Source: Bolinopsis microptera
Taxonomy: Eukaryota > Ctenophora > Tentaculata > Lobata > Bolinopsidae
Direction: 5' to 3'
Assembly (NCBI RefSeq): GCF_026151205.1
Contig: NC_087079.1
Location: 11,212,635-11,276,634, forward strand
Length of the DNA: 64,000 bases
Shown here: piece by piece, positions 31,937-60,004 of the stretch
Layout: the number at the start of each line of letters is the position of its first letter
Position numbering within the stretch: position 1 is the first letter of the stretch
The notes under the pieces: generated by a model
Database searches by the model: none
What the model was told of the DNA's origin: nothing
What the model saw: the letters and a program-made list of their open reading frames with translations, nothing else
Translations under genes and position numbers: made by a program

Positions 31937-31938
31937 AT

Positions 31939-32261
31939 GCCAACATTTGCATTTTGGTTCGACTTCATGGCAGAATTTTATAATCAAAAAATTAGATGTT
32001 TTAATGATTGTAAAATGCTTGACGTATTGGGCCAAGGAAAACGCTGCCTTGCACTGCCAATACATTTCTTTTGACTCATACCGGAAACTCCCTCTCCCTC
32101 TCAACATTTGCATTTTTGGTTCGACTTCATGGCAGAATTTTATAATCAGAAAATTAGATGTTTTAATGATTGTAAAATGCTTGACGTATTGGGCCAAGGA
32201 AAACGCTGCCTTGCACTGCCAATACATTTCTTTTGACTCATACCGGAAACTCCCTCTCCCT
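31939..32261 (+). repeat. 161-bp tandem duplication
   Basis: Two near-identical copies (31939-32100 and about 32101-32262), each beginning CCAACATTTGCATTTTGG or CAACATTTGCATTTTTGG and ending in CGGAAACTCCCTCTCC. The second copy leads directly into the long (CCCTCT)n tract, so the hexamer is the expanded end of this unit. Confidence 0.92.
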
Positions 32262-33243
32262 CTCCCTCTCCCTCTCCCTCTCCCTCTCCCTCTCCCTCTC
32301 CCTCTCCCTCTCCCTCTCCCTCTACCTCTCCCTCTCCCTCTCCTCTCCCTCTCCCTCTCCCTCTCCCTCTCCCTCTCCCTCTCCCTCTCCCTCTCCCTCT
32401 CCCTCTCCCTCTCCCTCTCCCTCTCCCTCTCCCTCTCCCTCTCCCTCTCCCTCTCCCTCTCCCTCTCCCTCTCCCTCTCCCTCTCCCTCTCCCTCTCCCT
32501 CTCCCTCTCCCTCTCCCTCTCCCTCTCCCTCTCCCTCTCCCTCTCCCTCTCCCTCTCCCTCTCCCTCTCCCTCTCCCTCTCCCTCTCCCTCTCCCTCTCC
32601 CTCTCCCTCTCCCTCTCCCTCTCCCTCTCCCTCTCCCTCTCCCTCTCCCTCTCCCTCTCCCTCTCCCTCTCCCTCTCCCTCTCCCTCTCCCTCTCCCTCT
32701 CCCTCTCCCTCTCCCTCTCCCTCTCCCTCTCCCTCTCCCTCTCCCTCTCCCTCTCCCTCTCCCTCTCCCTCTCCCTCTCCCTCTCCCTCTCCCTCTCCCT
32801 CTCCCTCTCCCTCTCCCTCTCCCTCTCCCTCTCCCTCTCCCTCTCCCTCTCCCTCTCCCTCTCCCTCTCCCTCTCCCTCTCCCTCTCCCTCTCCCTCTCC
32901 CTCTCCCTCTCCCTCTCCCTCTCCCTCTCCCTCTCCCTCTCCCTCTCCCTCTCCCTCTCCCTCTCCCTCTCCCTCTCCCTCTCCCTCTCCCTCTCCCTCT
33001 CCCTCTCCCTCTCCCTCTCCCTCTCCCTCTCCCTCTCCCTCTCCCTCTCCCTCTCCCTCTCCCTCTCCCTCTCCCTCTCCCTCTCCCTCTCCCTCTCCCT
33101 CTCCCTCTCCCTCTCCCTCTCCCTCTCCCTCTCCCTCTCCCTCTCCCTCTCCCTCTCCCTCTCCCTCTCCCTCTCCCTCTCCCTCTCCCTCTCCCTCTCC
33201 CTCTCCCTCTCCCTCTCCCTCTCCCTCTCCCTCTCCCTCTCCC
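32252..33243. repeat. (CCCTCT)n hexanucleotide tract, about 1 kb
   Basis: About 165 copies of CTCCCT with one CTACCT variant near 32322 and one 2-base phase slip near 32341; otherwise perfect. The minus strand is a (GGGAGA)n purine tract. Open frames through it in all phases (Ser-Leu, Ser-Pro, Glu-Gly repeats) are artefacts. Confidence 0.97.
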
Positions 33244-34974
33244 ATTCTATAAAATGTCTTGCAAGACTACTGTACTCGGATATGTAGAATTACTAACAGC
33301 GCCAGGTGCTGCTCAAAGGTTTTTGTGGATATACTTTGTCTATTACTCTATTCAGTTATGCATATGCTATTACTGCATTTATAGCTTTATAGCATACTCT
33401 CATCATACCACGGCCACACAGTGTCTGCTGCTCGTTTGTCTTCCCTTATATAAAATGTCTTGCAGTACTACTGTACTCGGATATGTAGAATTACTTTTTT
33501 ATTTGTCAGGTTTGCCCTGCAGCTAAGCCGTGAAGTACCTTGCTAGCGTGCTTTTAAAATATTTTCTGTCGGTATTTTGTTCAGACTGTTGTCTTACTCT
33601 AAGTTTTAGGAATTCATAGTCTTGATATTGTTACCGATTTCTCATAGCTTCATAGCAGTGAATTTAGGACACGAAATCTTACCCCCCCCGGCCCTTCTCT
33701 CCCAACTAGCACGTGGTTAATGAGACTACAAGAACGCCGAACAGTATTATAGGATTAATGAAAGCGGTCTGCTCATATTATACCCTGTATAGATTGTCCT
33801 TGACTCTTGGGCAAGCGTGGTCATACTAATACATACGTTACAATTTGTACACTGTGCTAGTTCAACGAATCATTAGTTTGTTTGCAGACGATAGTCGTCA
33901 GACTTTAAGCTATTGTCTTCTCCAAACCACGTGATACACCACAATACCAGTATTATTCCAATACAAATAACTAGCTAACATTGTAGATATTAATGTTCTG
34001 CTGACCATACACGCGCAAAATCCCAAATCTTCGGCTTAAATAAGAATAGGAGAGAGCTTTAGAAGGTAAATAAGGTTTTACCACAGTTATTTTAGTAGTG
34101 CATATGCATATCGTCTAGTCTATTATGTTACCAAGCTTTGTAATATGAGTTGTTGATATTATACCCCTGCGGCCTGCCCCTGTGTTGAATTTATACATCT
34201 GATCATGATATTTACTGATATGATACTTTGATTGAAGACTATTCCAAGATATTTTATGATAAATGCGTGTTCGTTATTTTATCTAACCAATGTTCACTAA
34301 CAACTGTTAGTCTAACAAGCAATGGTCTCCTGCTCCTCATTTAACAGAAGTGACTTTTCTCTATAAAAGTTGATTAATTAACATTCGATTGATTTTCATT
34401 CGAGACTATTTATTATGAGAGTTCTGAGTTCAAAGCTTACTTTTATCCTTAACTGAAATCACAAATTTGTCCGTAAAATCTCATTATTCGAAGTTCCTTT
34501 AAATTTAATTTTACTTTGTCTCGTTCAAGTTCTGTCCAATAAACCGTTCACTAGTACGCATATAATATCCAGTCAGATTTAATTCTTGAGGAGCGTACCA
34601 TAGAGTAATCTTTTATTTTAAAAAGTGGTCGTAATATGATATTCCATTAATCGATGGAATTAAACAGTTCATTTCACGGTAACAAATTTACCGTGAAATT
34701 GGATCAGTCCATATTTTTGCGATATACATCAGCTCCATGTAATGGTAATTTTTACTTTCCAAAGAAATTTGATAGTAGGCACGTGACCATAACCCAGGTG
34801 GTTGAAAGTCTGCACGTGCTATACCACGCAGTGACACGTGCTCATTTCATGCTGAAGCGCGCAGTGCCACACGTGCTAATCACATGCTGGTCACGTGCTA
34901 GTCACGTGAGAATTTCATGGTGGCACCGTACAACTTGCTAACTTGCAGATCAGGTTATTAAGTTCTTTTTTGTC
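33244..34974. other. Spacer with a 47-bp direct repeat and a CACGTG cluster
   Basis: TATAAAATGTCTTGCA and the following 30 bp at 33247-33294 recur at 33451-33497. At 34780-34915 the sequence has six CACGTG-containing words in 135 bp. No exon is recognised. Confidence 0.5.
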
Positions 34975-35893
34975 ATGAGATTGGCAAGGTTTGGAGCTGC
35001 AGTCTTTAGACCTCCGGTAAGTGCAATTTTCTGAGGTTTCTTATCGGATCATTTGTAATTGTACAGTTCTGTCATTGATAATTGATATAGATAAACTTAA
35101 GTAAGCTAAATTGAGTTTGTTAGTTTAGATTGAAATCCTTTTTGAAATTTGACCCTGAATTATTACTGATTTATCCAACACTATATTAGGTTACTAGATA
35201 TTGTCATCAAATCGACCTAGCCATATTGAGTGAAGTTAAAATGGTTCCAGCTAGCTCATATACGATAATTATGAACTCATCATTTTAATTATCTTACCAG
35301 CTTTGAATAATTAATAGACATGCCTGCACTCTACATCCACAAGTCTGATCAATAAGTTTACTGTGCAGACTGCAGATCCTTTCCAATCATTTTCCTTATA
35401 CACGATAATTGACAATTTAAAAAATTTTTAAATTGACATTCTGAAAATCTTTGTTGTTTGAGAGAGTAATTAGTAGTCCATCAGACAATATTTTTCTTTT
35501 TATAATCCTCCCTTCGACTGAACCATACACCACTAAATTTATCGACTATCTTGACTTTTAGCAGCAGCCTCGGATCCAGATTACTGTATTTATTTGCATA
35601 TTAATGCACATTCCACAACGCACGTGTAGCACATATGTAACAGATATTACATATAGGCTGCTCTGTGCACGTGCATATTATGTATGTACTATTATTTATT
35701 ATTGCATTTTGTCGGCATGTTTTTCTTTTTCCTTCAGCCTTTCACTCCTAATTTTCACATCTATATACTGCAGAAACGGCGGCATGGTGGGCGGTGGCTT
35801 CTTGATATGTTCTTACGGAGCTTAACCTTATTAATGCTTATCACGGCGGCAATTTCATTTAAACATAAACGGGGCTTTATAGTATATTATTGA
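34975..35893 (+). CDS. Possible two-exon gene for a 65-residue single-pass membrane protein
   Basis: Exon 34975-35016 (14 codons, starting MRLARFGAAVF) ends at a good GTAAGT donor. Exon 35738-35893 follows a pyrimidine-rich CCTTCAG acceptor in the same phase and runs to a TGA. An acceptor-like CAG at 34946 precedes the first exon. The product has a basic, mitochondrial-presequence-like N-terminus, a KRRHGGRW basic patch and one hydrophobic segment (LTLLMLITAAISF). Small proteins of this build are common in respiratory complexes, but I do not recognise this one. The evidence is splice signals plus phase only. Confidence 0.4.
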
Positions 35894-36180
35894 AAAATGT
35901 CGCTGTTCATTTTCAGTTAGACATTTCATATATTATGTTGAAAATAAATCTTATATTTAATGTAAACTTTTCCAACTGAAATCTGATATCATTGATATAA
36001 TATGCCAAAATAATGATTTTATTCGTATCATGGCAGCAATTTTATTGAAAAGCTTATATGTGAAAATCTCATTAAAAAATAAACGGGGCCTTTTTTAGTA
36101 TTTTATTGAAACTTTCGCTGTTCACGTTAAACATTTCCAACTGAAATCTCATTAGTATGCCAAAATAATGATTTTATATA
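35828..36180 (+). repeat. Diverged tandem duplication covering the stop of the small gene
   Basis: The segment from CGGCGGCAATTTCATTTAAA to ATAATGATTTTAT (about 35843-36020) is repeated with changes at about 36035-36180. AAACGGGGC, ATTGAAA(AA)TGTCGCTGTTCA-like and CCAACTGAAATCT blocks are shared. Confidence 0.75.
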
Positions 36181-36784
36181 TTAAATAATAAATATGGACA
36201 TGAGAAAATTCTAAGATCATTACCTTTTCTCGTGTGTGACTAATTATACATCATTTTCAATTATATATACGTTTCTTTAGAGTATCTTGAGCCTATTATT
36301 CGTGAAGTTAAGCCTATCGATCGATTACTTACTCGTGCATATAAACATTACTGCAGCCAACTTGCGAGCCAATGATCGATAATAAGTAGTTCTCATTGCA
36401 GTTTACACGCAGCTTCAGTGAAATTAGGACGGGAGGGAAGAGTAAGAGATCTGGATATTGGTGGATATGTTCTGACACGTGACAGCGTTTAGCCAATCAT
36501 ATTCCAGCGTTGACCAATCAAAACCCAGGATCGCTATCACGTGACAAATTTATGGTCCACCTCCCGCCAGTGTCCATACCTATTGTTATCTACAAATCTG
36601 GAATAATTGTAATATTTGAGTATTTGCAGGTATTCAAGCTTGTAGAAATATTTATACACACCGTCTTGTGTGACTTATAGTAGTGCTGGTCCTTTATAAG
36701 CAATTAGTGTGTGCCAGCGTATACTTTTTTGCTAAATCAACCGGTTGTTCAAGATCCATTTGTAATCGTTAGTTTTACTGAAAT
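36181..36784. other. Spacer with paired CACGTGAC / CCAATC sites
   Basis: No exon is seen. At 36474-36545 two CACGTGAC sites flank two CCAATCA boxes. This is one of several places with this combination. Confidence 0.45.
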
Positions 36785-36925
36785 AATACATACACTATTT
36801 ACTATACATTATACACTATACATTATACACTATACATTATACACTATACATTATACACTATACATCATAGACTATACATTATACACTATACATTATACAC
36901 TATACATTATACACTATACATTATA
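36785..36925. repeat. 14-bp minisatellite ACACTATACATTAT
   Basis: About ten copies, nearly perfect. The 71-codon open frame across it is a repeat artefact. Confidence 0.92.
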
Positions 36926-37342
36926 ATTGTTATCAAACATTTCTGTTCGTCGATAATTCAACTGATTCTTTAGGCTTACTTAGGCTTATTTAAATTGAGA
37001 GAAGTAACAATTGTCAATTCCAATACTCAAAAATCCAAAACTCACCTTTTAATGAATCAATTTTTTATTCTAAACCGTTATTAACGCCATTCCTTCCGAA
37101 AACTTAGATTTTTCACCGTTGTCAGAATTTTTGCGACATTCACTTTTTATCCAAGTTAATTTAAGTTATTTAAGTGAGATTGGACTGTGCTTAGAAAATT
37201 CAACATTTTTTATCAAGACGCAGAATAAATGATATTCTAAAAGTAAATCCGAAAGTAAAGTAAAGCTCCGAATTTAAAAATGTATGTTTTATAATTACGG
37301 TTAATTTGAAGAATCATGATAAATATTAACTTTTTGATAATC

Positions 37343-38805
37343 AAAATTATAGATGTGGATTCTTGTGGGGAGGTGGGGTACATTTGTTTATTTAACATGG
37401 CAATGGAGGTTCTGTTCAGCAGGAGACAGAGGTGATGCACATTTTGTATTATGGAACGCTATAACGCTTGTAACTCCTTCTTGTTACCCCCCTTTGAAGG
37501 TCCCGAATTATTTTCTGAAGGAAAGCTCAAAAATAACTGAGAAATTTTATATTGCGACAGTTTCTGGGCTTTTTGTGTGCGATAGGTTAGGCGTTATCGA
37601 TCGTTATTTTAAGTATCTGTCACTGACTGTCGCAGAGAGATGCTGGCGCCTTAAACCCCCTCCCCCATCGAACAGTTTGTATTGTACGTGGGTACGGTTA
37701 CACGTTCACATTATTTCTAGTTTATGACGTTATCAGATCATGGCGTGTGTACAGTACAGATACTAGATAGCACCTTGAAATTGTCGAGCCAAGCTGTGGT
37801 AACGATAACAATGTGAACAGAGGGTCAAATACAGATAAGGAAAGTAAACATATGATATCCGTCTGCTCGCTTTTATTTTCCTGTTCGTGATTGGATCGGC
37901 GTCACTTGACATAACACTTATATTGCTATTGGTCGCTCGAGATCACGGAGCACATGGCTGCGCTGCCGGTCGTTCAGAATAAATTTAATTCAGTTGTTAT
38001 CATGGATTGTTTTGTGGTGTTAATTATACCTGCTTTGTTTTTATTTTGATTTTGCTATCGTGCTCTGCTATTGTGATACAGTACCTGTTCGATTTGTTAA
38101 GGAGACGATCTCCATGTTCCTTTGTTGCAGGATCAAAATGTTCTTCGTTTGAGTAAAGCATGAATTTTTAGGGGTAAGGAAGTGTTGCATTGGGCTGTAA
38201 AACCAACTTAAATCGATTTCTCGTGCAATGTTAGGTGAGGAACAGTCATCAAAATGAGTTGCTTACCTGCTGTGTGTTTTCGGACTCTGCTCTTCACTCA
38301 AGTATTGCAAAGCTGCAATAAACATATTGCAACGAACATTTCTCTCTGAGAATTGTGTTAGTACCTGTTCGATCAGTTATGGTGACGATTGCCTCTTTAG
38401 GTTCAGCTTACTACTAGGTCCTAGGTCATGAGTAGAATCGAAGGATCAAAATATATGTTGCTTGTTGCTCGTATTGACTACAAATATCAATTTTGAGGGA
38501 TAAGGAAGTGTTGATAGGTTCTGAAACCTAGTTAAATCGATTTATCGTGCAATTTTAGGTCAGAAACAGTCATCAAAATGAGTTAATAACAAGGTCAATT
38601 TCTCGGTTATTTTTAAGCTTTCGTTCAGAAAATAATTTGGGACCTTCAAAGGGGGGTAACAAGAAGGAGTTACAAGCGTTACAAGCGTTCCATAATACAA
38701 AATGTGCATCACCTCTTTCTCCTGCTGAACAGAACCTCCATGTTAAAGAATTAAAGTAAACAAATGTACCTCACCTCCCCACGAGAATCCACATCTATAA
38801 TTTGA
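37343..38805. mobile_element. 1.46-kb element with 205-bp terminal inverted repeats
   Basis: 37343-37548 and 38596-38805 are reverse complements at roughly 90 percent identity (ATTATAGATGTGGATTCT at the outer end, AAAAATAAC(T/C)GAGAAATT at the inner end). The interior holds two diverged direct copies of a segment running from TAGTACCTGTTCGAT or CAGTACCTGTTCGAT to CAGTCATCAAAATGAGTT (about 38082-38262 and 38348-38587). It has no transposase. The 124-codon open frame at 37353 is not supported as a gene. It may be a MITE or an inverted duplication. Confidence 0.75.
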
Positions 38806-38838
38806 ATAATTATGATTAATTTGGTACTCTTCCAGTTG

Positions 38839-41800
38839 ATGAGTTGTTCTGCAGGCGGAAAAGCCGCTTGCGGGGGCGATCCTAACTCAACATCAGGATA
38901 TCTCAAAAAGAAAGGTAAAATTATTCTTACTTCAGCTGTAAAGTTTCTGTTGTTATTTTGATTTATTATTTTTTCTATCACAGCTCCTTTGAGTAGAACT
39001 TTGAATTAAGAACAAGAGGGAAAAGTTCTGGAATTTGCAAACTTTAAACTTATATTTTGTGTTATCAGGATTTGTTGATGTGGACAGATACTATAGTATA
39101 AAAAAGGGGGATCCTCATATGTACTGCTACAAAGATGAATCTCAGGTTAGTAAACTTATAATTAATTTATAGACACATAGATTTAATCCTAATATAATGA
39201 ATGACACGATACAGTGTGTCTCATATAATCAAACATTTTATAAATAATTATTTAAATTTTCAATAGTTAGTTCTTTGATTTTATTTGTTGAACTTGCACC
39301 TTAAATCTCAATTGAAACAAATAAACAAGAACTTACGGCTTCAGCTTATACGTTAAGCATTACTTAAATTTATGTCATAATATTCAGCAAAAATCTACAA
39401 AGAATTACAAAATGGGATTAAAATTTGAACGTCTATGCAAATGATATTATCATCAACTTGCAAAGTTTCGCCTATGTTATCATCAACTTGCAAAGTTTCG
39501 CCTATGTTGTAAAATTAGGCATAAAATCCTATTTTCATCAACAAATCCTTAAACACTTTATCTTGGAACTTGGAAGCGATTTTTTAAATTAACTTAATTG
39601 ATTCTATAATAAACAGTATCCATGAGTCGTGTTCTGATACCTCCTTCGTCCTTAGCAGAGTACCACTTACTCAACAACTTCTCTTCGATTCTGAATAACA
39701 TTTTATTTCTCGTCACATCGATCATCTTCGCATTGTCATAATATACCTTACCCATGTCATGTTAACTTCCGAAAGTCCTAATGTAGACTAAATGAGAGTC
39801 TTTGGTTGTCTCCACTCATGGTTGAGAGTCTTCGCTCAGTTGAGAGTCACCTCTCCACTCAGATTGACATATTAACTTGACAGTGTAGAGTTAAGAATGT
39901 TTCACGGGTAGTTCACAGTAGCCATGTCAGAACTACATTCTGCTTCTGAAGGGTGTTCTGTTATTGTCTGTGGAAATGAGGCACATCTCTGGAACGACGG
40001 TAGCTGGTCCTGAAATGTTTAGCCGATCAGAGCACAAAACTATACCATCAGTGATCGGTTGCTTTTATGTCAAAATCCTAATAAAGTATTCCAATTTCTG
40101 TCTCTATACAAAAAAGGGTTAATTCCTTACCTCCACTAGGCCAGCTCTCAGCTCGAGTTTCTTTAACCTGCTGTTCAATCTCTGACTGTCATTCAACAAC
40201 TTTAGTATCAGTTTCTGAGATATTATCACGTTGAGAATTGTTAGATAAATTTGTATGATTTCGATACGACTATGATTTATTTCTACGGCAACCTAAATGA
40301 TAGATGAGCATATGAAATGCCATGGTGAAGCTGCATGGTACAATAAAATTAATGGTTGACAACAAATTTAATGGTCGATAACAAATTTAATGGTTGATAA
40401 CAAATGCCTTACCTCACAGCTGTTCATGATCTGGTGAGGATCGTGTTGACTTATAAACGACATGGAACTGTTTATAGAGCCTGTGCTACTGGCGTTGCTA
40501 TTGTTACTGTCTTCTGAACCTAGGGGTATAACCATATAAGGTCAGTTTACCATGGTAACATTACCATATATAGTGATTTTACCTATCTTGCTAATCCGGG
40601 GATATATATATGAGATATGACTACTTATTCAGATATTTGTATTTATAAAGAAAAGAGGAGATACTTACTTTTTCGGGACTTAGTGATATATAGTGATGGT
40701 ATAATGTTAACATTTCTACTGTCGTTGTAGTCGGTGATATTAAATGATGGAACCATGGTATCATTGTCACTATCTTCGTAGTCAGTGATATAGAATGATG
40801 GTACCATGGTAACATCTCCATTTTCTTGGTATTCTGTGCTCATGGGATCGCACTGGAATGTCAAAGCAGCAATTCTGCGAGCATTGCTGATCAATCAAAT
40901 TGACACTTCAAATCACTAGTGATTACTAAAAGCGAACGTCAATTTAACGTGCAGATTGAACTCCACTATAATCACAAGAAGTAAAAAATCTGTTACAAAA
41001 TAATAAGCGGGGGTCTGTCAGTGAAATGTCATGAGAGCTGCTAGATAAAGCTAGATGTGGTATTAGATTTCACGTATCAACTCTGAGACTTGAATGTTGT
41101 GGAAATAACTGGTTTTGTATTTCCGGCGATTCTATGACAGTTGATTATTGGATTAAGACATAACAATAATGACAGCAATTCAGAGCGTGAGAAGGATTAG
41201 AGAACAACCCTCAAATACTGGTATTAGTCCAGCAAGCATTACCTTCAGCAGGTTAATTAAGAGATGTAACAATGATTGCTTGAGCTGGAGCAGTAGAGCC
41301 AGAGGCTAAGTATAAGATCACGGTGTCGTAATCACTTAATGACAACTTCTAGTAATTAATTATAAGTACCATGCACCATGGTATCTGAGCACCATGGCAA
41401 CAGTGGACACTCATCCTTTACATTCTATTTGTGGCACCCTGACCCATTTGGCACCCACGTGGCACCCACGTGTACTATTTGCAGTAAACACACTGCAATT
41501 AGAGGACTGCTGGGTTAGGCAACTACTTTATTTGCTACAGTTTGAAGGTGACACAAATGAAAGCTAAATTAAAATAAAGTATAAGTGAAAGTAAAAGATT
41601 AAAAACTCACCGACAGAATTGAACTCAGTCTCCTCATCCTCCTCTATTGAGTGGAGTGGGGTTATGTTCAGATAGTTGTACCTCTTCTCTCCGCTTGACA
41701 TGGTCCGCTCACTTTTTAATGAGGGAACTTTATTCATATTTTATAACGTAACATTACATGTCAGGAACTAGCAAAGAAAACGCGAACTGGTTGAAATACT

Positions 41801-44800
41801 GATTTCAGCTGAATATTTACAGATTAAATTTGACCAACTACCTGGAGGGATGCAAAAAATGCAGCTTCACTACTGATTAAAAACGGAAATAAACCATTAT
41901 AGACTCCTCCCTGTTCAAACTGCAAGGGAGACCCGTCCTACGGTCCACGGCTAGTATTCTGTGCGATAATTTTAAAGCGGATACTTGATTAATTCAATAA
42001 AATTTCATTGTGTCTTTTTAGCTCTGTGAATAAAGCTATTTTAATTGTGAATGTATCCATTAAGTCAAAAATAGAATAACAAACTTTTAGTTGCAAAGTT
42101 TTAGTTTTAGCTCTGTAAAGATTAATAAATGCTATTCTAATTGTGAAAATATCCATTTAGTCAACATTAGAATAACAAATTAAGAAATTCCTAGTTGCAA
42201 AGTAATTAAGACTTATTTATAACCGTATGTTGATTCAGTAAGTAAATTATGCGACACAAAAGAAAATGCTGTAATTTGTGAATTAGCAAGAAAGCAGAAA
42301 TTTCAAAAGCCAAGCAAGCTCAGTGACATCTGGAAATAAAACTTCATAAATTCTCAGTTTTCTTATACTTGTAGAAAACAATTACCAAACCGACATGTGC
42401 CATTAAATAAATCGTATCTGGAATTGCACTGCTATCGAAAAGTGCACCTCCGCAGATAGTGCATGTTACACTCGCCAATCGAAGAGCTCTATTCTGGTCG
42501 TAAGACTCAAATTAACCAATCAGATAACTCCATTCTAATCACGTTCCACAAACTAACCACTCATGTAGCTTTATTCTAGTTACTTCAAATTGCTAAATTG
42601 ATAATAACTGACAAATCAGACAGCTTAACTCTAGTCACGTTACCAATCAGAAGCAACGTAATGTACACGTCAACGGGGCCATTGTTTAGGTTTTGAGATC
42701 ATCATGTCTACGGCTCAATTTAAAATAGAAATTACAGTTTATCGATGTTTTTGCAAGCGTGCAGAAAACGTCAGCTTCAAATTTGTTGAATTATGATACC
42801 TTGTTTTTAAAAAACGTAATGGAAGCGTAAATAAATTTAAACATGTTAGATAAGCAAAATTTGGCAACTGCGATAAACGGTCAAAAATCCATATTCATGA
42901 TATTGATCATAATCGATTAAATTTTGAATCGATTACACTTCAAGTTTCAATTAATATAAGTAATCATTATTCAACAATGTTTAAATATTGATAATATGTC
43001 TGAAAGTCGTAATGAATCATTTATAATCAATATATATCAGGGACAAAAGGAAATCGCGGCATGTGCGGGATCGCGATTTTCCCCATTCTTTGCGACAAAT
43101 TTTATATGTCGTCTGTTTGGCTTGTCGCGGCATCGCGATTTTTGGCCAAAATTATCGCCATTTTCTTTTGTCCCTGATATATATATATAATTGTTTCTAA
43201 AAAAACAGGAAAAAACGATTATTCGATTATGATGTGTCGGAAAAAGCGGACAATCAATATTGATTTCACGTTAGTTAAATTTTTGTTGATTTAGTGTCGA
43301 TCCTTGTTTCGATCATTGCATCGATCAACGATGAATCGAAAACAAAACACATTTGTTTTATTCGATGTTGATCGACATAAAACGACAGTTTCGATCGAAT
43401 TCGATATATATAATAGAAACAACTCGAACACTGCTTGCAGTTGTATTGAATAGCCCCTAAGACCCAGCACGATCTTGGTTTCAACAATATTATTGATCCG
43501 TCGATGATTATGATTGCATCAAAATGTCATCAGTATTGTGCCATCAACGCTCATTATTGAGCAACATAGTTCGATTGATGCACGATGCCATTATCGTGCA
43601 AGTTTAATGACGATTATAGTCCTTTGCAGCTCGTAGCTTGCATCTATACTATAATTAGAAGTTTTAATTGTACTTCTTTCTGAGACTAAACATTTATGGT
43701 GAAAACTAGCAAATAAATTTTTAGTGCGTTCATGTGTAGCTCTATTTTTACATAATGTAATGACGCTCTTCGTTCAGAAAACTGTCAATTTCAAATAAAA
43801 TACGACAAATCAGCTCCATCTAATGCTCTGACAAGCTGAAGATTGAAAGCACTTCAGCTAAAAGTAACAACTAACGCGTTATATTATAAATGTCATGAAA
43901 TAACGAGCTCTGTTAAATTATGACTCTTGCTCGAAATTAAAGATAACCTGTACGAGAATGATAGCTCAAAGGTTTAATCTTATGGCATCATGGCTGCTAG
44001 TGAGTCCTGACAGTAGTCGTTGTGTAATAACTTGAAATCAGGAATTGCAAGTCTTCGAAATTTCCTGATTGATTTAAAATTGCTTTCCTCAATTCCTAAC
44101 CGTAAAGATAACTTGAGTTAGTTAATAAACTGTCAGCCAGAGCTTTAGTGTAAATGCTCTTTTAAGAATGAACTTTATTCAAGACTCAAGAAATGGCCTG
44201 GGAAATTACAAAAAGTTTATTTAGGTACAGGGCTTGCCGATTATGAAAAAAAATAACATTTTAGTGAAAAAATAACGAAAAAAATACTTCAAGTTAAATG
44301 AATGATAAAAAAATATTATGTCAACTTAGCAAGTAACGAAGAACATAATTCCAGTAAAATAAACGATTATGTTTCAGACATGGAGAGCAGTGGAGAAGAT
44401 AAACCTGTCAACCTCGAAAGTTTTAACTGACTTTGGGATGAGCCCTCCAGCACTGCTGATCGAGGAGGAAGCTACTAATTCCAGTAAGTATTTATAGTCT
44501 TCCTCAGCTTGCTGATCTAGTAATAACATAATTGCAATTCAAATTCAAATCGATTAAATTATGTCAAAATACTGCAACTGCATATTATAATTGTAACCGA
44601 ATTTAATTATAAATACACCCACGCGTCCTAATACAAGATGACATAATACAAGATGACATAAATATATAAGATGACATAATGTAAGATGACGTGAAAATGT
44701 TCGATTCCCGTTCAATCCTATTTCTTTATTTAAATAATTCTATAAACATTACTGTACAATGTTAGCAGAACCACAGATCCGTCCAGAAACAAAAACAAAA

Positions 44801-47800
44801 TGGCACGAACACTGAACAGCTATAAACTATATTAGATACACCAACGTTAAGCACTAAAGGGGTCATTCATAATAACTAAGTATTTCTTAAGTAAATACTC
44901 GCTAGTAATTACTTAGATTTTTCTGAGTCTCAAAATCGGTATTCACAAAGTTTGAGCATTTACTGCCCAGTAAAAACTAATACTCAAGCTGAATTCATCG
45001 TGAGTATGACTTACATTCAAGTAAATACTCACTAAAATGCTCTCAAACTAGCACTCAAATACTCAAATCAGTATTTTAAGAAGCACGACAGGTTAATTCA
45101 GATCTTTTGTTTGCCATCTTATGTTAATGGGGAAACACCCAAATTCGGATGTACATCGATGTATCGAAGGAATGTGAAATAAACATTTTCGAGGGAAATT
45201 TGTGTCGAGTACATTCGACATTCGCACATCACGTATAACCGCATATGTCTGTGATGGAATGTGTGATATCGCAATCTTGAAATGGCGGCAAAATGACAAC
45301 ACCCTTGACTCCGAAGATAATTCAGAATCATTCTTGATATCTATTCCTGATAATCTGTAATGAATGTTTCTTGTGCGATATTGTGTCCCCTACAGGTAAT
45401 TTCACGTCCCTTTTACAGTGGTTTACCGTGATTTACTGTAGTTTTCTTTTATCCACGGTAGTTTCCCGAAACCCACCGTAGTTTTACTGTGGTTTGCCGT
45501 CAATTTCTCAAACTTTATTAAATACATATCGATGTTCAATAATTACCTAGCAGATTATTCTAACCCAATACCGACAGTGATAGAAAGGTAAGCTGAACTT
45601 TTGTATGATCATGTTCGTGGCATGTTTTCGAAATGATTGTGTCTTTTGTTATTGATTAATTTTGTTATTGATTAATTGACGAAGTTTGAACTCAGCTTGT
45701 GTTAAGTCTGAGCTCTATGGCACTTCCTCTTTTACCACCGGCCCCACATTCGACTAGAACATTCAAGACCCGACGTCAGCCCCGAACGGACTTTTACTAC
45801 AAAACCCAGTTCCGCTTTGAAGAACCGTCCGTTGACTGGATGGCCAGGCATTTTTTGGGACCTGATTCCGGTGAAACGCGAGGAGGCGCCTTGACAAATA
45901 AACATAAAATGGAGATTTGTCTCCGATATTTTTCAGACCCGGGTTTCAAAAATGGGGTTTCCGAAATAGTCGGCGTCTCCCAACCTACTGTTTCACGGAC
46001 TGTGAAGTATGTAATAGAAAGAATTGTGGCAAAACGTGATGTTTGGATTATTTTCCCGACAACAACTCAGGACTTCAATCAAGCGGCTCAATTCTGGGCG
46101 ATGAAAAAAAGTTTCCCATACTGCTTTGGGGCCGTAGACGGCTGCTTGATTAAGGTTCAAGTCCCACCTCGAAGACACAACCCTCAACAGTACTACTCTG
46201 GTAGGAAAAAGAAAAAACCTATTACAATCATCTCGGTACGCAATTTTTATCGCTAGTCCTAGCCAAAGCTTTCAGAGAGGTTTTTTATAACTATTTTTTG
46301 AATTGATGACTGATCTGCGTTACTTGGCTCCTGAATGTCGTGGGGACACCATTTTATACCAAGCTTATACTCTAACGTGTTTATTTTTCTGGGAAAATTT
46401 GCAAAAACGTCATCCAATCGGGAAAAAATATATTAGAGCTTTTTTACTGGCAGTGAGGAGTCGTCCCTGAAAATTTGAAGTGAAAATATCAATTAGAAGG
46501 GAAGTTATTGACGTTAAAACTTTAAAAGTCGTTGAGCAATAGGTGAGAAAATGATTTGAGAATGTGAATTCGGTTCTCACATTTTGAGCATGAGTTTTGA
46601 TCATTTTCTAACTTTATGAATACCAATCTTGAGTTAGTTTTGGGTGACGAGTAAATACTAACTTTATGAATACCGATTTGAGTGCTAGTTCCAACTCTGA
46701 GCATTTACTAGCGACAAAATACTCAGACCGCAAATACTTAACTTTACGAATACCAAAAGCGAATTTGATCTCAAAATCTAAGATTATCTCACAATTTGAG
46801 TCTGAGTTTTCGTTTATGAATGACCCCTTAACACTAAACACTATTTATCAACCAACGTTTCAAAGAATCAAATTTGTTACTCACATGTGATTTATCATTT
46901 AACAAGTACAATATGATAATTATTGTACTCAATTATTGTACTGATGATATTATTCAACCTGCAGTGTGTGCTGTTCCTTGTGTTCATGAGGTATAATATA
47001 GTAATATATGCTTATGACTCTGCTACACTTCTGAATTTCCATTTCACCTTCATTTTACTCTTTACTCTTGCTTTCACTTTCACTTTCACTCTCACTCTCA
47101 ATTTCCGGATTCTGTGATTAGACGCCCAACATTGTAAAACTTTCGTCGAGCGCCAAGGTTGCTGATGAGTCAAACAAAAGAAAATGTTTGTTTATAGGAA
47201 ATTATATATAGATCATATTTCCCTCTAATGTAAAACTCATAATTCTGGGCTCAGTGTCCGAGAAAATAATTAATTATCCACCACTAACCACTATATCTCT
47301 ATATGTCCTATTAGCCTATTTCTAGGCACCTCACTATAGCAGATTTGCATATTATAACAAAAGAAACAAAGACTGCACATAGTTAAATGTCCGTAATAAA
47401 ACACTGGACCGCGTGTTATAACTGATGAAAATAACTTTAGAACTCCCTAAAGGTTTGATTAATCAGCGTTCTATTTGGAGCACCACAACAAATAGCTCGT
47501 TTTGAGACCCATCAGGGACAAAAGGAAATCGCGGCATGTACGGAATCGCGATTTTTCCCATTATTTACGACAAATTTTATGTATAGTTTAATATACCGCG
47601 AAATGTAATTCGCGGTATCGCGATTTTTGGCCAAAATCGCCGCGAAATCCTTTTGTCCCTGAGACCCATCCTAGTATAGACGAGTGTGGTAGGGTGCCAT
47701 GGTAGGGTGTCACCGAGCTAGTCATGGTTTTTAGACGAGGATCTCGTGTCACAGGGTGCTATCTCGTCTGCACGAGATAGCACCCTGTGACAAGTCACGT

Positions 47801-50047
47801 GTGAGAGGAAAAGTTACCATTGCATGGCACCCTAACATTTTCATTTTGGACGAGAATAGAAGGGACTAGAGTGCCTTATTATTTATTAAAAAACAACTAT
47901 AGGCTACGATAGGAGGTCCTGTTGTCGAATTTGACCCGCGGATATCGGTTTCACTTTAGCTTCCTCCCTCAGAGTGGTTGCTGCAGACGGGTGATGAAGG
48001 TGAGATATTGCCCTGGCTCAAGTCTATGGAGCAAAGTGGAGTTCAATGTCTGGAACCTCAGGAGAAGATCTGCGACCAGGTATCTAACTCCTGAATCATC
48101 AATCATCATGTGACTTTACTGATGTTGTTTCAAGCTATAATTATAAGCATAGATCCAGCCAATGATTGTTAGTAGTGCAATCGGTGTTGACTTTTTTGTT
48201 CTGTTATCAGAAAATAACGTTTCCGATTAAACTATGTGCAAGTTTTATCAGAAAGGAAAACCTGATATTTACCATTTCCATTTTCCGTTGATCACGTTTG
48301 ATTCCTCAGGCAGAATGTGCCAGTAACATCTACGATTTCGAAGTCGGAGATATTGATGGCAGTAATGTGAAACTCGACAAATACAAGTTAGTTTGACTCT
48401 CCTAGTATTCTAAAGAATTTTTGTCAAGACTTCATATTCTGGAACTATGTATGTACTTAAATTCCGTGTTACTAGCAATGTCAAGTGGTATGTCAAGTGG
48501 CAACTGGCATGTCAAGTGGTATGTAAGATGGTATGTAAGATGGTATATAACGTGATATGACTTCACTCCATTTTCCCAGGGGGTACGTGACGTTAGTAGT
48601 TAACGTGGCGTCAGAATGAGGATTAACAGAATTGAACTACACACAGCTACAGCAAATTTACAGCGAATACCAGGAAAAGGGTTTACGGATCCTGGCCTTC
48701 CCTTGCAACCAGTTCGGAAAACAGGTAACCTCATTTATCAATTTCACCCTGTAACCGCTAACCAGTCGACTGTCGAAGAACATGTTTCCTTATTTATTAT
48801 TGGAATCAGACATCAGTAGCTGGAAATGTATGAATATGGATCAATTTTAAGTATGCAAAATCGCTTAAAACAGTAACATTAACTACCTTCACTTTAAAAT
48901 GACCTTATACTATTCTCTTAAGCAGTTAAGTTAAGTTAATATATTAACTTAATTCATTTTTCTGATTATTAAAACTATTTCAGGAGCCCGGTAATCATGA
49001 TGAGATAATAGAGTTTGTTTCTAAGTACGGGGTTACATTTGACTTGTTCGGTAAAGTGGAAGTTAACGGACCTAACGCCACTCCTCTTTATCAGGTATTT
49101 CACTTTCACTTTCAATTTCACTTTTAATATCAACTATACTTTACTTTAAGCTTCACTGTAACTGAACATGAAAATATGAGGACGAATAAGGGATTATCAC
49201 CCCTGTAGTTTACCACATTTGTACTAAATTTCAGCTGTGATAGAATGCTTAAAATAAAAGGATTGTGTTAAGATAAGATGAGGTCTAATCAAGTGCTTCA
49301 TTATAGCCGATAAAGATATCCAACTTTCTAAATATAATCAAACTAAACACAGTGAGGCAAGCTGAGGGCACACAAGCTGGGCGCTGAAATGTTGCAGTTA
49401 AGCAGTCACCGTGGCGGGCGTGGCGATTCCTATTTTACCATATTTAACATAATTTGCTTTCCAATATGATTATGATTTGTGACGGTCTGGTTTGCTTTAC
49501 TTCGAACATGTAAAAAGGCGCAACCACTTCGGCTAATGAAGGCAAAATTTGCAAATTTGGCGGAACATTCGAGTGTAGATTATTTTACATACAGTTTTAA
49601 GAATTTAAAGATACCTAAAATGAATTCCAGACACCATAACTTAAAGATGACACACGTACTATAGCTGTAGAAGCGATCATATAGCTAAATAGTATACTAA
49701 CGGCGTAATACTAATACGCTAAAGATACATTGGAGGGGTGATACACAAAGTTTTTTAAACTGTTCCACTAACTGAGTCGGTCAAATAGTATAAAATAAAG
49801 TTAGTAACTTTTGGGTTACTCGGCAGTCGGCCGAAAAAAAGCATACTGTGCAGACATTTAGAACTCAACAATATATAAACAATATTCATTTCAGTACCTA
49901 AAGAGCAGAGTATCAGGATCCCTGGGATCTCTAGTTCGGTGGAACTTCCAGAAGTTTCTGATAGACAGGAATGGGGTTCCCAAGTTCAGATACGAGCCGA
50001 ATGTTTCTCCGCAGACTATACTCCAGGATATAAAGAAGCTTCTTTAA
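38839..50047 (+). CDS. PH domain - selenocysteine glutathione peroxidase (GPX4-like) fusion, eight exons
   Basis: Exons 38839-38914, 39069-39145, 44378-44483, 47973-48079, 48310-48386, 48580-48724, 48984-49094 and 49895-50047 join in consistent phase (1,0,1,0,2,0,0) into 283 codons. Residues 17-108 read as a PH domain: GYLKKKG start, [37 protein letters not shown] with the conserved helix Trp101. Residues 124-283 are GPX4-like: [42 protein letters not shown]. The tetrad Sec161 (TGA at 48617), Gln196, Trp249 and Asn250 is complete. GPX4-type enzymes reduce lipid hydroperoxides; a PH domain could tether the enzyme to phosphoinositide membranes (inference). The GPX exon at 48310 has no ATG of its own. 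An in-frame ATG at 48026 (Met105) could give a 179-residue GPX-only form. PIGK-style certainty applies to the GPX part; the fusion needs a transcript. Confidence 0.75.
39902..41701 (-). CDS. Opposite-strand gene nested in a PH-GPX intron, function unknown
   Basis: Minus-strand exons: 41701-41611 ([15 protein letters not shown], acidic IEEDEETE), about 40852-40669, 40519-40413, 40214-40131 and 40009-39902 (TGA). Donors are good (GTGAGT, GTAAGT, GTAAGG, GTAAGG), and the last four exons are in consistent phase. Exon 1 ends in phase 1, which does not fit the start of the 40852 exon, so one short exon is missing or an end is wrong. The second block has three imperfect 17-residue repeats ([14 protein letters not shown] type). 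A Ser/Asn-rich stretch follows, then a short amphipathic coiled-coil-like helix ([20 protein letters not shown]). I do not recognise the family. Confidence 0.6.
42474..42655. repeat. Cluster of CCAATCAG...AGCT...TCACG motif copies
   Basis: Four to five imperfect copies of a roughly 30-bp motif, e.g. GCCAATCGAAGAGCTCTATT at 42474, ACCAATCAGATAACTCCATT at 42515, and others at about 42555 and 42612. Several end in a TCACGTT-like E-box half. Confidence 0.65.
43038..43176 (+). mobile_element. hAT-type MITE, copy 2
   Basis: 139 bp with CAGGGACAAAAGG / TTTTGTCCCTG ends and an ATATATAT 8-bp duplication on each side (the flank is simple sequence, so less decisive). The inner palindromic region contains TCGCGATTTT repeated in inverted form. 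It lies inside the second intron of the PH-GPX gene. Confidence 0.88.
44858..46828 (+). mobile_element. PIF/Harbinger DNA transposon, internally degraded
   Basis: Terminal AGGGGTCATTCATAA / TTTATGAATGACCCCT inverted ends with a TAA target duplication (44855-44857 and 46829-46831), the classical 3-bp TWA target of this superfamily. Subterminal regions are rich in repeated TACTCA/TGAGTA words in both orientations. It contains the N-terminal part of a Harbinger transposase. No Myb-like partner ORF is seen, so it is probably non-autonomous. It lies in the third intron of PH-GPX. Confidence 0.85.
45717..46256 (+). pseudogene. Harbinger transposase, N-terminal fragment
   Basis: 179 residues from the ATG at 45717. 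A helix-turn-helix-like region ([19 protein letters not shown], about residues 92-110) is followed by [15 protein letters not shown] with the first catalytic Asp of the DDE_Tnp_4 domain, then [10 protein letters not shown]. The protein ends at [11 protein letters not shown]; the other two catalytic acidic residues are absent. A GTACGC right after the conserved block could be an old donor, but I find no continuation before the 3' terminus of the element. It is therefore read as truncated by internal deletion. Confidence 0.85.
47513..47661 (+). mobile_element. hAT-type MITE, copy 3
   Basis: 149 bp, same orientation as copy 2, with CAGGGACAAAAGG / CCTTTTGTCCCTG ends and a perfect 8-bp duplication AGACCCAT (47505-47512 and 47662-47669). 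It differs from copy 2 in the middle, where an extra GCGAAATGTAATTCGC stem is present. It lies in the third intron of PH-GPX. Confidence 0.92.
47747..47792. repeat. Perfect 21-bp hairpin
   Basis: A 21-base arm (TGTCACAGGGTGCTA...) and its exact reverse complement are separated by CTGC. It is about 180 bp upstream of the last PH-domain exon. Neighbouring sequence has related GTAGGGTG(C/T)CA words. Confidence 0.9.
48617..48619 (+). other. In-frame TGA, predicted selenocysteine codon
   Basis: The TGA sits exactly where GPX4-type enzymes carry their catalytic Sec or Cys, between VNVASE and GLTELNYTQ. The frame is strongly conserved on both sides. A nonsense mutation at this one position is far less likely than recoding. 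Confidence 0.87.
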
Positions 50048-51688
50048 TGGCTGATAAAACATTGTATTGATTGTAAATGTTTTTTTTGTGAGGGGGAAAT
50101 CCTAATTCATTCATTTCATAATTAATTGAATCATTTAGTAAACTTGTCAGATTGAGGTTCGTAAATTATTAGTAGTCGTTAAAATCCTCATGAAACTGGG
50201 ATCCCCCAAACCAAAAAAAATAATTCCTAAATCCCCGAACTTATTTGAACCTGGTAAAAGGTTATTTTATTTCTGGTTGCAACAAAAAATTTTCTGCTGT
50301 AAACAAATCTGAAACGTGTAGTTCAAACCCGGTGCGGGACCTCTGATTGGAAATGTCTGTGTTTGCTGTTTTTGCTGTGCGGCAATCACGTGACTTCTTT
50401 TTGGACCCCGCAAAATCTCCTACAATCTGCATGTGTACTTGTCGCGCTGTTGCCATAGCAATGGGCACGCTTGTTGCACATGTATTTTGTGGATGACGGT
50501 GGCTCTGAAACCGAATTATCGGAGGAGTCGACTTGATGTGGAGATTTTATTTTATAATATACTGTACAAAGTTATTAATAGAATTAGATTATAACGTTGA
50601 TCCCGTTAAAAATTAATTAATGATACAATTTCGATAATATTTGAAATTTCGAATCATGTAACGAGTTTTATTTGTGAGAATGCGAATTTTTTGCTACAAA
50701 TTATGGTCAGAATAATTAATAGTATCTGACTACTTAATAAGTCTTGAAGAAGTTTAAATTTAAAGTTCAATGAAGGGCCGTTTTTCTAATGAAAGTTGCA
50801 AAGCTCGATTTGCCGTAAACCTAACAAATTTGTGTCTCTTCCTAAATTTTCTGACATTACAATTACATTCCAACTTCTTATTTTTAATCAGCGACCCTAA
50901 CACTAACGTCTAACACCCTAACCAGTATTCAGTAACCAGCCTACCTTCTCACCTTCCTAGTGACATCTGTGTGAAATTTTGCTGACGGGACGAACCCATG
51001 ATATTTGCAGCATTTGCTTTGCATAGGACAGAATGCATGAAATTTAGAGACATGACAGTCAGAGAATGAATAAATACTTGATGTTTCTGTATCGGCTGTA
51101 TCGAGAATGACAAGCACTTGCTCAATAAGCCATTGACAATTGTCATGCAGGAGGAACTCTCACGAGAAAGCATGGTTCTCTCTCGTGACCAGGAAGAAGT
51201 TGGGTTTCCTTTGCAGTCTGCAACTTTTTTCTTTCCTGAAGATAATTTTATCTTCTTAATTGCACTCAATTCTATCTTGCTTGGACTTGGAGTTAGGTTA
51301 ATTTTTGCAATTCAGTTCTCTACTTCTTGTTAATGTCGTTGGGTGGTACTCGTCAAATATTTGTTTCAAATATTACTATTAGGAGTATAGTACTAGTAGG
51401 ACCGCGTCGACGAGTCCAACTCGGCGCGCGTCCTGGTAGGTTATAAACCTACAATATTTATTGAGGTTATTGATAAGTTTCCTCTTATCTGCAACTTAAT
51501 TCTTTTTTGAAGATACGCACCTTTTTGCTTCTGCAACTCAATTCTTTCTTTTTTGAAGTCAAGTTTCTTTTGGCATGGTCATGTTGACATTTTGGAACTG
51601 GGATCGAGAGTCCAGACAGGAATTTTCCTGATACCCAGTACCCACCTCGTACTCAAATTTCAATGGTAAGTAATACTAATAAGTATAA
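50048..51688. other. Region downstream of PH-GPX, no further gene supported
   Basis: The first several hundred bases should include the PH-GPX 3' UTR, where a SECIS element must lie if the TGA is recoded. ATGA at 50190 followed 14 bases later by AAA (50208-50210) is the only SECIS-like pairing I noticed, and its stem is weak. Minus-strand frames of 68 and 106 codons at 50262-50468 and 50949-51269 have no motif I can name. Confidence 0.4.
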
Positions 51689-51696
51689 GTTCACAC

Positions 51697-51825
51697 TTGT
51701 AGCGCGATGCACTACTGGGTCGCGCCGCGCATCAAATAATTCTTCTCGCAACCTTCGGTAGATCGGCGAAATGCACCATTGTGCCTCACCGAGCTGCGAA
51801 GGATTGACATTACATCGTGAATCAA
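51697..51825 (+). mobile_element. 128-bp element, copy 2
   Basis: 129 bp flanked by GTTCACAC (51689-51696 and 51826-51833). It matches 8136-8263 almost throughout, differing by a 4-bp deletion after CGCAACC, a 5-bp insertion after GACAT and a few substitutions. Same orientation as copy 1. Two independent 8-bp duplications fix the element ends. Confidence 0.88.
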
Positions 51826-51833
51826 GTTCACAC

Positions 51834-52945
51834 CAAATGATAATGTGAAAATTTAACACACCGTGCTTGACTGTAACAATAAATTATATCTAAATACTAA
51901 TAGTCGGTCTAACTCTAATTGTTTTCATTGACTGTATCCACACAATGGCTTTACAAGTAGTTTGAAAACGACTTGCTTGATATCACCATTAGTTTGTCTT
52001 GGTATTAAACAGGAATTAAACATAATAGCGGTTGTGCATGGTGATGTAAGTTAGAAGTGCATGACATATTTGTTGACATCATCTTCTTCTTCTTTACAAT
52101 CTCAACATTGAGATGATGTCTGAATCTGCGGCTGGAACCGATTATCACGTACGTGATCGTTACATTTGAGGCTACCACTACTTGAGCAGCTTATATCCTG
52201 ACTCAAGCAAACATGCATGAGACACGATGTGACCACAGTGAACAGCACTCAAGTGGCGCAAGCACTGACAACAAACTGAGGACACTTCTTCTAGCTCGAC
52301 TTTAACACTGATTATATGATTATATAGGCCGGACAGATTGGCGTTGACATATTGTAATATTTGCGTGTTGTCTACTGCTCTCCCGCAGCGACAGTACTGC
52401 ACAGGTCACGACACTTTGCTGTGTTTATTCAACTGTGGTCACGACACTTTATTGCATATTCACGATATCATGGTATTGAGTAATGATGTTTTTTAACTGT
52501 AAACTGTAAATTTACTTGATAAGTTGATAGTCCGGTTATACTTATCCATAAATTCATGTTTACCATTTTAATCAACCTGACGCCTCTAAAAGTTAAAGTA
52601 GATGATCTAATATTTATTGGTGGTTAAAATATGTTATCTAATATTTATCGGTTGTTTTTAACTCATTTGTTGCGGTTTGTATTAAAAGTTTCCGATATCG
52701 CCCCTCATTGACATTGTTTTCCGGCTTTGTCTAGAAATTGCAACAGTTTATAAGATATCTTTTACACTATCTCATATTCGAGACGGAGGGAAATATTTAT
52801 ATTTTAGGCAATCCTTTATTTCAAACGTTTATACTTGACATCTGCAACCTGAAAATATTTGTAATGTAACTCATGTTAGCTGAATATGTTAATTTTCTAC
52901 ACGAAGGTTTGATCTTACTTATTTATTTTTAAAACTCATTTAGAC
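51834..52945. other. No gene seen
   Basis: Spacer before the ten-exon gene. A minus-strand 74-codon Cys-rich frame at 52178-52402 is not supported. An acceptor-like TTTAG just before the ATG at 52946 implies that an upstream 5' UTR exon of that gene lies somewhere here. Confidence 0.4.
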
Positions 52946-55900
52946 ATGAAAATCCCTCAATTCGCCCTAAACGGAAGCTACGTCACCTCCACAACTGGAA
53001 GTTCCTCCCATGGAAACACGTCCAGTAACCATGGCAACGGATCAAGCTACCTCGACAGCTCATCGGACAGGAACAACAACTCCTCCCTGTTATCTCCAAC
53101 TCCAAGCAGTGACGACCACAAGTTCATGGTGGATATGGCTGTTGCTAAAGATAAGACTCCCTTTTTACTGGCCAACAAAGCTAATGATAATCTCCAGAGG
53201 GCACTGAACAAATTCATGGTTTATCACGAAAGAGAGAGAAAGGTAATATTTATAATGTATTACTTGTTATTTATCACCTGTTGTTACCATACCTGTTATC
53301 TATACTGCAGTTTCATCTAAATCTAATGTCTTATAATGTGTCATGTTGAGTATCTTGATGCCATTGATATTGTGACTACCACCTTATCTCCAGTTATCAC
53401 GGTCGTCCAACTCTGACTATTCTCATATTGATATCTATCATTTTAATTGCTCCTTGAGGCTTTTTTTTTCTTTTTTTGTTGCGGCACCCACTGACTACCG
53501 TCACAAGGTATGAGGTAGCGACCCTCCATGCGGAGTATCCTACTGGGGTCCACCTGGTTAGCATTTATACCCCTCGGCCCTCCTTGAGGCTTGTTATAAT
53601 CGTAAACATATTAAATCTGTAAATGATGTCCACTTTCAGCTTGTGAACAGAATGTTCCGGCAAGAAGAACGAATCTACAAACAAAGAGTGGCTAGATGCG
53701 CCACAGCTTTGCCGCGAAATAAGGCTAAGACTATTAACACTATTCTGGAGGAGCGCGACCATGATGAGGAAGTGAGTTTTTCACGCAATTTCACAATTTC
53801 ACTTTCACTTTATTTTTTAACTTTATATTTGTTGTTAACCCACCAATGTATTGACTATATTCATACCCTGCTTCACTTTAATATCATAGTCCTATTTCTG
53901 TTAAAGTTATTATTCAAATTTCAATGTTCGAATGTACTTTCTTTCAGATTTTGAATCACCATTCACCAAAGGCTTGAATCACCATTCACCAAATGCCCTA
54001 ATCGTACCCTCATGAAGAATAATTGCAATGGCAACCACACACACAGCCACCTGTCACAAACTAGAAGAGATCTCAGATGAGAACATTCCAGGGCCACCTC
54101 TACAACATGCACTTGTCACACTTGTCACACAATCATTCACAATAACTCACACAACAATCACTAAACATCCTTTTGGTTCATCTTTTACAAGGCGTTTGAT
54201 CTTTTAAAGTAACTAAGATGTGATTTTAAAACAGTATTATTACCTGTAGGATGATGGAGAAGGAAAGTGGGCGATAACGAAAAAACAGAGTCTCAGTTCT
54301 CCTTTGACTAAACCCCGACCTAGAACCGCTGGAGGGCCTGTTACCCGGCATAGGATACGGGTACGAATTTAGATTTCAGATTCGTAGCTTCTGATAAATT
54401 CTGTAGAAATTTCATGAGCACATTTTTATTGCTGTAATCATTTTGTTGAAACTTAAAATTCTAGTCTGATATACTGCCACCTGTAAGCTCATTGATGTTT
54501 AAATTTAACCACATTGAAGTGTGAAGAGTACAAATTAGCAAATTATAACGAGCCTTTGACTGAATCAGCTCCTTCCGCCTTCCTTAACCCCTAGACTTAA
54601 AGACGCTCAATTGGTTTCGAGATTTTGGATGTGCTGAGAAGCATGAAATTTGATAATTGAAGCCAAAATTATTCAGTTTCGTGATTTCAACGTAGATATT
54701 GATCTCGAAAATTACGTAGTCAGCAATACGTACTTGCAATTCAAGGAAATAAGTTTATGTAATGCCCAACTATAATTAAATCTTTACTGAGGGTTGGCTT
54801 CCAAAATGAGAATTGGTTTATTCAACCTAGCTGTTTCCTCTCAAGACAAAACGTATCCTCCCAAAACCAAAACGTCGATCAATAGAAACGGTCGACCTTA
54901 CCCAATTTTAATATTTTGGTAAAGAGAAGAATTTACTATAGTAGTCTAACTGATAACTGTTATCTCAGACACAACTAGTTCCCCCAACGGAAGAAGACAA
55001 CACGGTAGAACTAACTTACACCTTCAACTCGTTGTTCGGGGACGTTCAGAAACATGTTCGAGTCCCTTCTGCCATCGACTTGAGCTGCGGTGACAATGTG
55101 GGTTTTAATTTAATTAAAGTTTAATGTAAAATACTTATCTACACAATTGTCAATGATTCTGGTGGTACAATTGTAATCATTTTATTTGATCAAATTTCTT
55201 GATAGTTGTTATCATGCCTGATAACAAGCTGTTTTGTAAAGTCAAAAGTGAAATTGATTGAAAATGATATTTTCATGCCTGAAGTCAATGGAAAAGCGTA
55301 TGCTTTTGCCAGACTAAATTGATACCATGGGCCAAGAATCTGTATCAGTATACCTATTAGTTATTGACCAAATTACTAATTGTTGTGATATCAAGTCACC
55401 AATTAATCAATTAACTAATTAGCTAATTAGCGACCTCAGAGTGGTAGAGAAGACAATGACGGTGACCCCCTTTCAGGACACGTGAAGATTCCAACTGCGG
55501 TAAGTGCACTGGAATGTTATCTAAGCGAATCTTATCTTAGTGAGCATGATCAAACCCTTAATTGAGTTGTACCCTTACAAGGGTTTTTAAATTTACATGT
55601 TTTCATGGCATAAGATGTTAACGAATCTTTAAGAAAAAAACTTTTGTAAAGTTGTAAGTTAAAACTTACTTTTTAGTCCGGATTGAGCGGGGAAGCGTCT
55701 GATTGCCTGACTCCAATTCCTCCTGACTCTATTCTCAGTCCCACCTCCAGATCTTCTACCACCTCTCTACACCCCTCTATTAGGAGGTGGTAAGCTGATT
55801 TTATCATTTTTTTACATCTCACACTCACAGTCCCTCAAGGATAACCCTGGTTCTTTCATCAAAAACCCAACTTTAATTCTTAGAAACCCTATTTTTTTGG

Positions 55901-58981: not shown

Positions 58982-58984
58982 GTG

Positions 58985-59152: not shown

Positions 59153-59171
59153 AATATAATTTAATACAATT

Positions 59172-59980: not shown

Positions 59981-60004
59981 GATTAATTTACCCCAGTTTA
60001 ATCA

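Follow-up and report, generated by a model that had tools for sequence, protein, structure and literature searches.

A window of 64,000 nucleotides (positions 11212635-11276634 of contig C8, in an assembly of 264.65 Mb and 232 contigs, which by its size and its introns is eukaryotic) contains a gene that appears to join a PH domain to a glutathione peroxidase (GPX) with selenocysteine (Sec). We think it likely that this is one gene, encoding a PH-GPX4 selenoprotein with a length of 283 residues or more, which would be docked through its PH domain. That is, four PH exons would stand where a paralog on contig C3 has a short N-terminal leader exon, and they would be spliced through the same phase-0 intron onto a complete GPX4-type catalytic domain. 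An element in the 3' region that resembles a selenocysteine insertion sequence (SECIS) would let UGA be decoded as Sec.

Exon structure and reading frame

The eight exons listed in Table 1 all lie on the + strand and give, when joined, a frame of 283 residues that runs from 38839 to 50047. Every intron begins with GT and ends with AG, and the frame is broken at no joint. The exons end, in order, in phases 1, 0, 1, 0, 2, 0 and 0. The only in-frame stops of the joined frame are one internal TGA, at residue 161, and the final TAA. An earlier note on this DNA had described eight exons in consistent phase, and their coordinates and the length of 283 residues were reproduced in our analysis. For the joining of PH exon 3 to PH exon 4 an acceptor at 47987 was tried and rejected, because it is out of phase; the acceptor leading to 47973 is in phase and recovers the missing strand.

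Splice sites were ranked by their share among all AGs or GTs in the window, using scoring matrices of generic frequencies. The acceptor of GPX exon 1 was strong (top 0.9% of AGs). The donor of PH exon 4 was in the top 3.5% of GTs, and that of GPX exon 3 was comparable (top 4.1%).

Table 1. Positions of the exons and signals of the PH-GPX gene in the window, and of the leader exon of the C3 paralog
Feature	Position	Strand	Remark
PH exon 1	38839..38914	+	N-terminus, strand 1; acceptor-like AG ends at 38835
PH exon 2	39069..39145	+	strands 2-3, by eye
PH exon 3	44378..44483	+	strands 4-5, by eye; weak acceptor
PH exon 4	47973..48079	+	KWLLQ strand and C-terminal helix with Trp101; donor CAG/gtatct, phase 0
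GPX exon 1	48310..48386	+	without start codon; begins in phase 0, like the C3 paralog
GPX exon 2	48580..48724	+	holds the Sec codon
Sec codon TGA (selenocysteine 161, VASE-U-G)	48617..48619	+	aligned with GPX4
GPX exon 3	48984..49094	+	part of the GPX half
GPX exon 4	49895..50047	+	WNFQKF; stop TAA
SECIS-like element, type II	50493..50536	+	3' region, 446 nt past the stop
AATAAA, first candidate poly(A) signal past the SECIS-like element	51069..51074	+	
C3 leader exon	L004, 0-based 120-164 of the joined reverse complement	-	MGCSGSKDKEVKRPK

The GPX half

For the Pfam search, Sec was written as Cys. Residues 129-236 matched GSHPx (PF00255) with an E value of 2.2e-42 and a score of 143.5 bits against a cut-off of 27, over the whole profile (1-108 of 108). 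The search of the PDB gave 41 relatives at E up to 0.001, with GPX4 entries on top, down to 2.7e-54. E values were about 1e-50 or better for entries with GPX4 or phospholipid hydroperoxide GPX in their name. Mixed among the top matches were designed GPX4 proteins and a few entries that bear just the name glutathione peroxidase; the latter fell within or near the GPX4 range (best 1e-52). The GPX7 and GPX8 entries were found at about 1e-32 to 1e-33, and those of GPX1, 2, 3, 6 and epididymal GPX at 7e-25 at best. By this ranking of structure matches, the GPX half is closest to GPX4 and not to GPX1, 2, 3, 5 or 6.

Against 7l8m, which we take to be human GPX4, 85 of the 156 aligned residues were identical. 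The catalytic set of a GPX consists of Sec (or Cys), Gln, Trp and Asn, and the motifs of this set, VASEUG, FPCNQFG and RWNFQKF, were found in the translation in alignment with GPX4. Judged from the sequence, it is certain that the four 3' exons encode a Sec-containing GPX4-type domain. The statement of the earlier note that these exons form a complete GPX4-like catalytic domain agrees with both the full-length GSHPx match and the PDB ranking.

The SECIS-like element

The hairpin in the 3' region is made up of ATGA, an arm of 11 nt, AAACCGA, a small apical hairpin, the return arm and TTGATG. Two elements on contig C10 (locus L001, positions 313 and 2465), which stand beside two other Sec-GPX genes, align with it, and ATGACGGT, AAACC and TGATGT are invariant across all three. 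The octamer ATGACGGT has one further + strand occurrence in the window, at 55456. When the paralog loci were scanned for SECIS elements, the element at 313 was detected, the one at 2465 was not listed by the scan and was spotted by eye, and the examined stretches of C3 and C1 gave no convincing element. We call the hairpin SECIS-like because of the arrangement of its motifs and its match to the paralog elements, as its energy alone is not unique. A predicted hairpin of the kind that marks a selenoprotein gene is thus present, in a form common to two paralogs.

The PH half

The PH part of 122 residues matched a single Pfam family at E up to 10, namely PH (PF00169), with an E value of 0.016. The value was 0.11 inside the whole fusion and 0.0076 (17.2 bits) for the 97-residue core, for which, too, no family other than PH was matched at E up to 10. 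In all three forms the match spanned positions 4-102 of the 105 in the profile. When the core was shuffled, none of eight shuffles matched PH, and one weakly matched another family. Against the PDB at E up to 10, the PH part gave four matches. The best were RhoGAP 21 and RhoGAP 10 chains (E values of 0.094 and 0.21), which presumably carry PH domains; the remaining two were a beta-mannosidase and a glycoside hydrolase. A Trp in the C-terminal helix is a feature of PH domains, and the PH part has Trp101 in that helix (ILPWLKS). About 20 residues separate the PH match from the GSHPx match.

From these matches we regard a PH-type fold as probable for the first four exons. The earlier note had seen in them a PH domain with its hallmark positions, and had considered that a profile search might find no PH match in the N-terminal part. 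PH was in fact matched there, over the full length of the profile and with Trp101 in place, so this claim holds as far as the fold is concerned; it is weakened by a score under the Pfam cut-off.

Other GPX loci of the same genome

Besides the locus in the window, four GPX loci were found: L001 and L002 on contig C10, L004/L006 on C3, and L005 on C1. All four have TGA at the Sec position by eye. The pair on C10 are neighbouring genes with a signal-like N-terminus. The C1 locus was considered as a retrocopy, which would be a spliced witness of the mRNA, and was ruled out by the introns seen by eye in its sequence.

In the C3 paralog, whose exons were set by eye and whose last exon was not located, the leader exon MGCSGSKDKEVKRPK of 45 nt ends in phase 0 and is followed by exons of 71, 145 and 111 nt. 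Counted from the leader, the end phases are 0, 2, 0 and 0, and the counterparts of the three later exons in the window (77, 145 and 111 nt) have the same end phases. The GPX sequences of the two loci are 64% identical over 108 residues. N-myristoylation follows the pattern MGxxxS. The C3 leader, MGCSGS..., fits this pattern and also has Cys3 and basic residues, so that the C3 paralog is possibly a lipid-anchored GPX4.

The joint between the two halves

GPX exon 1 has an in-frame stop upstream, at 48289, and the stretch from this stop to the exon is free of ATG, which confirms the earlier observation that the exon at 48310 lacks a start codon. The nearest compatible exon upstream is, as also noted before, PH exon 4, which has a phase-0 end and lies 230 bp ahead of GPX exon 1. 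Going by the lack of an ATG and the layout of the C3 paralog, an old phase-0 intron probably forms the border at 48310 and needs an exon upstream. Fusion is the simplest reading of these phase-compatible exons, and we infer from it that the PH and GPX halves are on one mRNA.

The alternative that survives best, although we consider it unlikely, is a pair of head-to-tail genes, one for a small PH-only protein (...CDQVSNS, ending at 48094) and the other for a GPX4 with a leader exon inside a PH intron. If PH exon 4 is left unspliced, its frame continues as VSNS and reaches a stop at 48092-48094, four codons beyond 48079, and ATTAAA is found at 48226; these two features keep the two-gene explanation alive. 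In addition, the C3 paralog possesses a leader exon of its own. When we searched three introns for candidate leader exons, 13, 5 and 3 were obtained at three thresholds, and a looser leader pattern gave 20. At the middle threshold these were 40404-40433, 43958-43999, a shorter version of the latter that starts at 43982, 45360-45395 and, at 47699-47701, an exon of nothing but ATG. However, the antisense strand gave 22, 17 and 10 at the same thresholds, that is, 17 against 5 at the middle one. Because the antisense strand holds more at each threshold, there is no excess of candidate leader exons. By eye, none of the listed candidates is like the MGCSGS leader. Moreover, the gap of 230 bp between the halves held just four candidates running from an ATG to a phase-0 GT, all of which scored below 0, and within 48080-48309 there was no donor in the top 5% of GTs.

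Still less probable, in our opinion, is a gene whose alternative first exons yield a short GPX4 alongside the PH-GPX protein. Mammalian GPX4 produces several N-terminal forms, any leader that ends in phase 0 could be spliced to the GPX border through its phase-0 intron, and formal leader candidates are present in the PH introns; against this, no particular short first exon is conspicuous. It is very improbable that a trans-spliced leader gives GPX exon 1 its start codon and that the pair is an operon-like unit: the acceptor of that exon is strong and follows a small gap, and the ATG of PH exon 1 too comes straight after an acceptor-like site, but the ATG itself would need to come from the leader.

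Several observations weigh against a single PH-GPX gene. All the evidence is genomic sequence from one genome of one species, and a phase match at the junction would arise by chance alone in about one case in three. At 5,232 and 3,489 bp, the second and third introns are long, and by eye they contain what is probably an antisense gene and a HARBI1-like open reading frame (ORF). The acceptor of PH exon 3 is weak, ranking in the top 15.7% of AGs; two GPX acceptors, those of exons 3 and 4, are of similar weakness (top 13.3% and 21.0%). At the 5' end, the ATG at 38839 stands 3 bases after a site that resembles an acceptor (top 3.7% of AGs), so that it is uncertain as the true start codon, and there may be further exons upstream or a trans-splice site. 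The PH score was below the Pfam cut-off of 25.1 bits in every form tested. The basic lipid-binding motif of phosphoinositide-binding PH domains is K-Xn-[KR]-X-R, and with n from 1 to 12 it had no match in residues 16-60. As for the SECIS-like element, equal or better energies occurred elsewhere in the window (six on the + strand and one on the - strand), mononucleotide shuffling of the 2 kb past the stop gave a match of like energy in 4 of 200 trials, and the folding energy of the whole 81-nt stretch was ordinary (z 0.11). No family of Rfam, SECIS included, had a match at the gathering score in the window, and at E up to 10 over 49900-53000 Rfam gave four weak matches with no SECIS family among them.

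Surroundings of the gene

No further convincing Pfam domain was found in 29001-38838 and 50041-59940 on the + strand or in 38801-48700 on both strands. Besides GSHPx, these scans of flanks and introns gave two matches near an E value of 0.1 and a further one to a simple repeat.

The probable antisense gene in the second intron occupies about 40420-41701 on the - strand, with its ATG at 41701-41699 and its exons set by eye. One of its exons has repeats, and the Pfam scan of the - strand over 38801-48700 gave nothing at E up to 1. In the third intron, an ORF at 45717-46256 on the + strand looks by eye like a HARBI1 (Harbinger) transposase; with the same limit on E, Pfam gave it no match either. 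Two related copies of a repeat, GGGACAAAAGGAAATCGCGG..., stand at 43041-43180 in the second intron and at 47510-47661 in the third, and by eye are likely a short mobile element. Very long simple repeats that are open in several frames were found at 31932-33287 (of Ser-Leu and Pro-Leu type) and 59071-60102 (of Thr-Leu and Asp-Pro type).

Discussion

If the two halves form one PH-GPX4 protein, the PH domain would most likely be a docking module, directed to a membrane or to a membrane-bound partner; both the docking and the choice of ligand are what we infer. Docking would keep a monomeric phospholipid-hydroperoxide reductase near its substrate, and from knowledge of the family we expect that phospholipid hydroperoxides would be reduced as by GPX4. 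In the C3 paralog, the MGCSGS... leader would serve the same end by lipid anchoring. The earlier note had proposed a phosphoinositide-targeted lipid-hydroperoxide reductase. The GPX4-type Sec enzyme and the PH-like domain agree with this proposal. As for its phosphoinositide part, the basic motif is absent, and such targeting is only a possibility; numerous PH domains do not bind lipids.

Ferroptosis is opposed chiefly by GPX4, and the sites in the cell at which this activity is required are an open question. If our explanation is true, nature has provided a GPX4 that carries its own docking domain; such a protein could serve directly to study this question, and it would also illustrate how exon shuffling can reach a selenoprotein. 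Given the different, myristoylation-like leader of the C3 paralog, the N-terminal exon may act as a targeting cassette that can be exchanged. We speculate, with considerable reserve, that a eukaryotic lineage, probably of animals, has a PH-borne GPX4 and a lipid-anchored sister, and that interchangeable exons at the N-terminus, spliced through a single conserved phase-0 intron, direct the repair of phospholipid peroxides to particular membranes.

The earlier note knew of no described PH-GPX protein, and we found none in the open-access literature among the matches listed, part of which consisted of a title or the beginning of an abstract. In one article, algal selenoprotein fusions are described, namely SELENOM-pVHL, SELENOM-ShKT and GST-MSRA (PMC7539508). 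These resemble the gene in the window in that an extra domain is attached to a selenoprotein, and they differ in their families and organisms; the terms 'PH domain' and 'pleckstrin' do not occur in that text. In a review, the anti-ferroptotic enzyme FSP1 is stated to require its myristoylation motif to act (PMC7858612). FSP1 is similar in being an enzyme against lipid peroxidation that needs an N-terminal membrane-targeting signal, but it is an unrelated enzyme, and its targeting is by myristoylation and not by a PH domain.

The PH half has the full-length profile match and the C-terminal-helix Trp of the PH family (PF00169), but it falls short of the score that Pfam demands, lacks the basic motif and is joined to a redox enzyme. 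The C3 paralog is similar in its GPX sequence and its intron phases, whereas it begins with its short leader exon, and no PH sequence was noticed by eye in the 120 bp examined upstream of it. GPX4 itself (7l8m) shares the type of domain, the Sec/Gln/Trp/Asn motifs and more than half of the aligned residues. GPX4 has only a short leader, whereas the protein predicted in the window would have about 120 residues with a PH-like domain before its catalytic domain.
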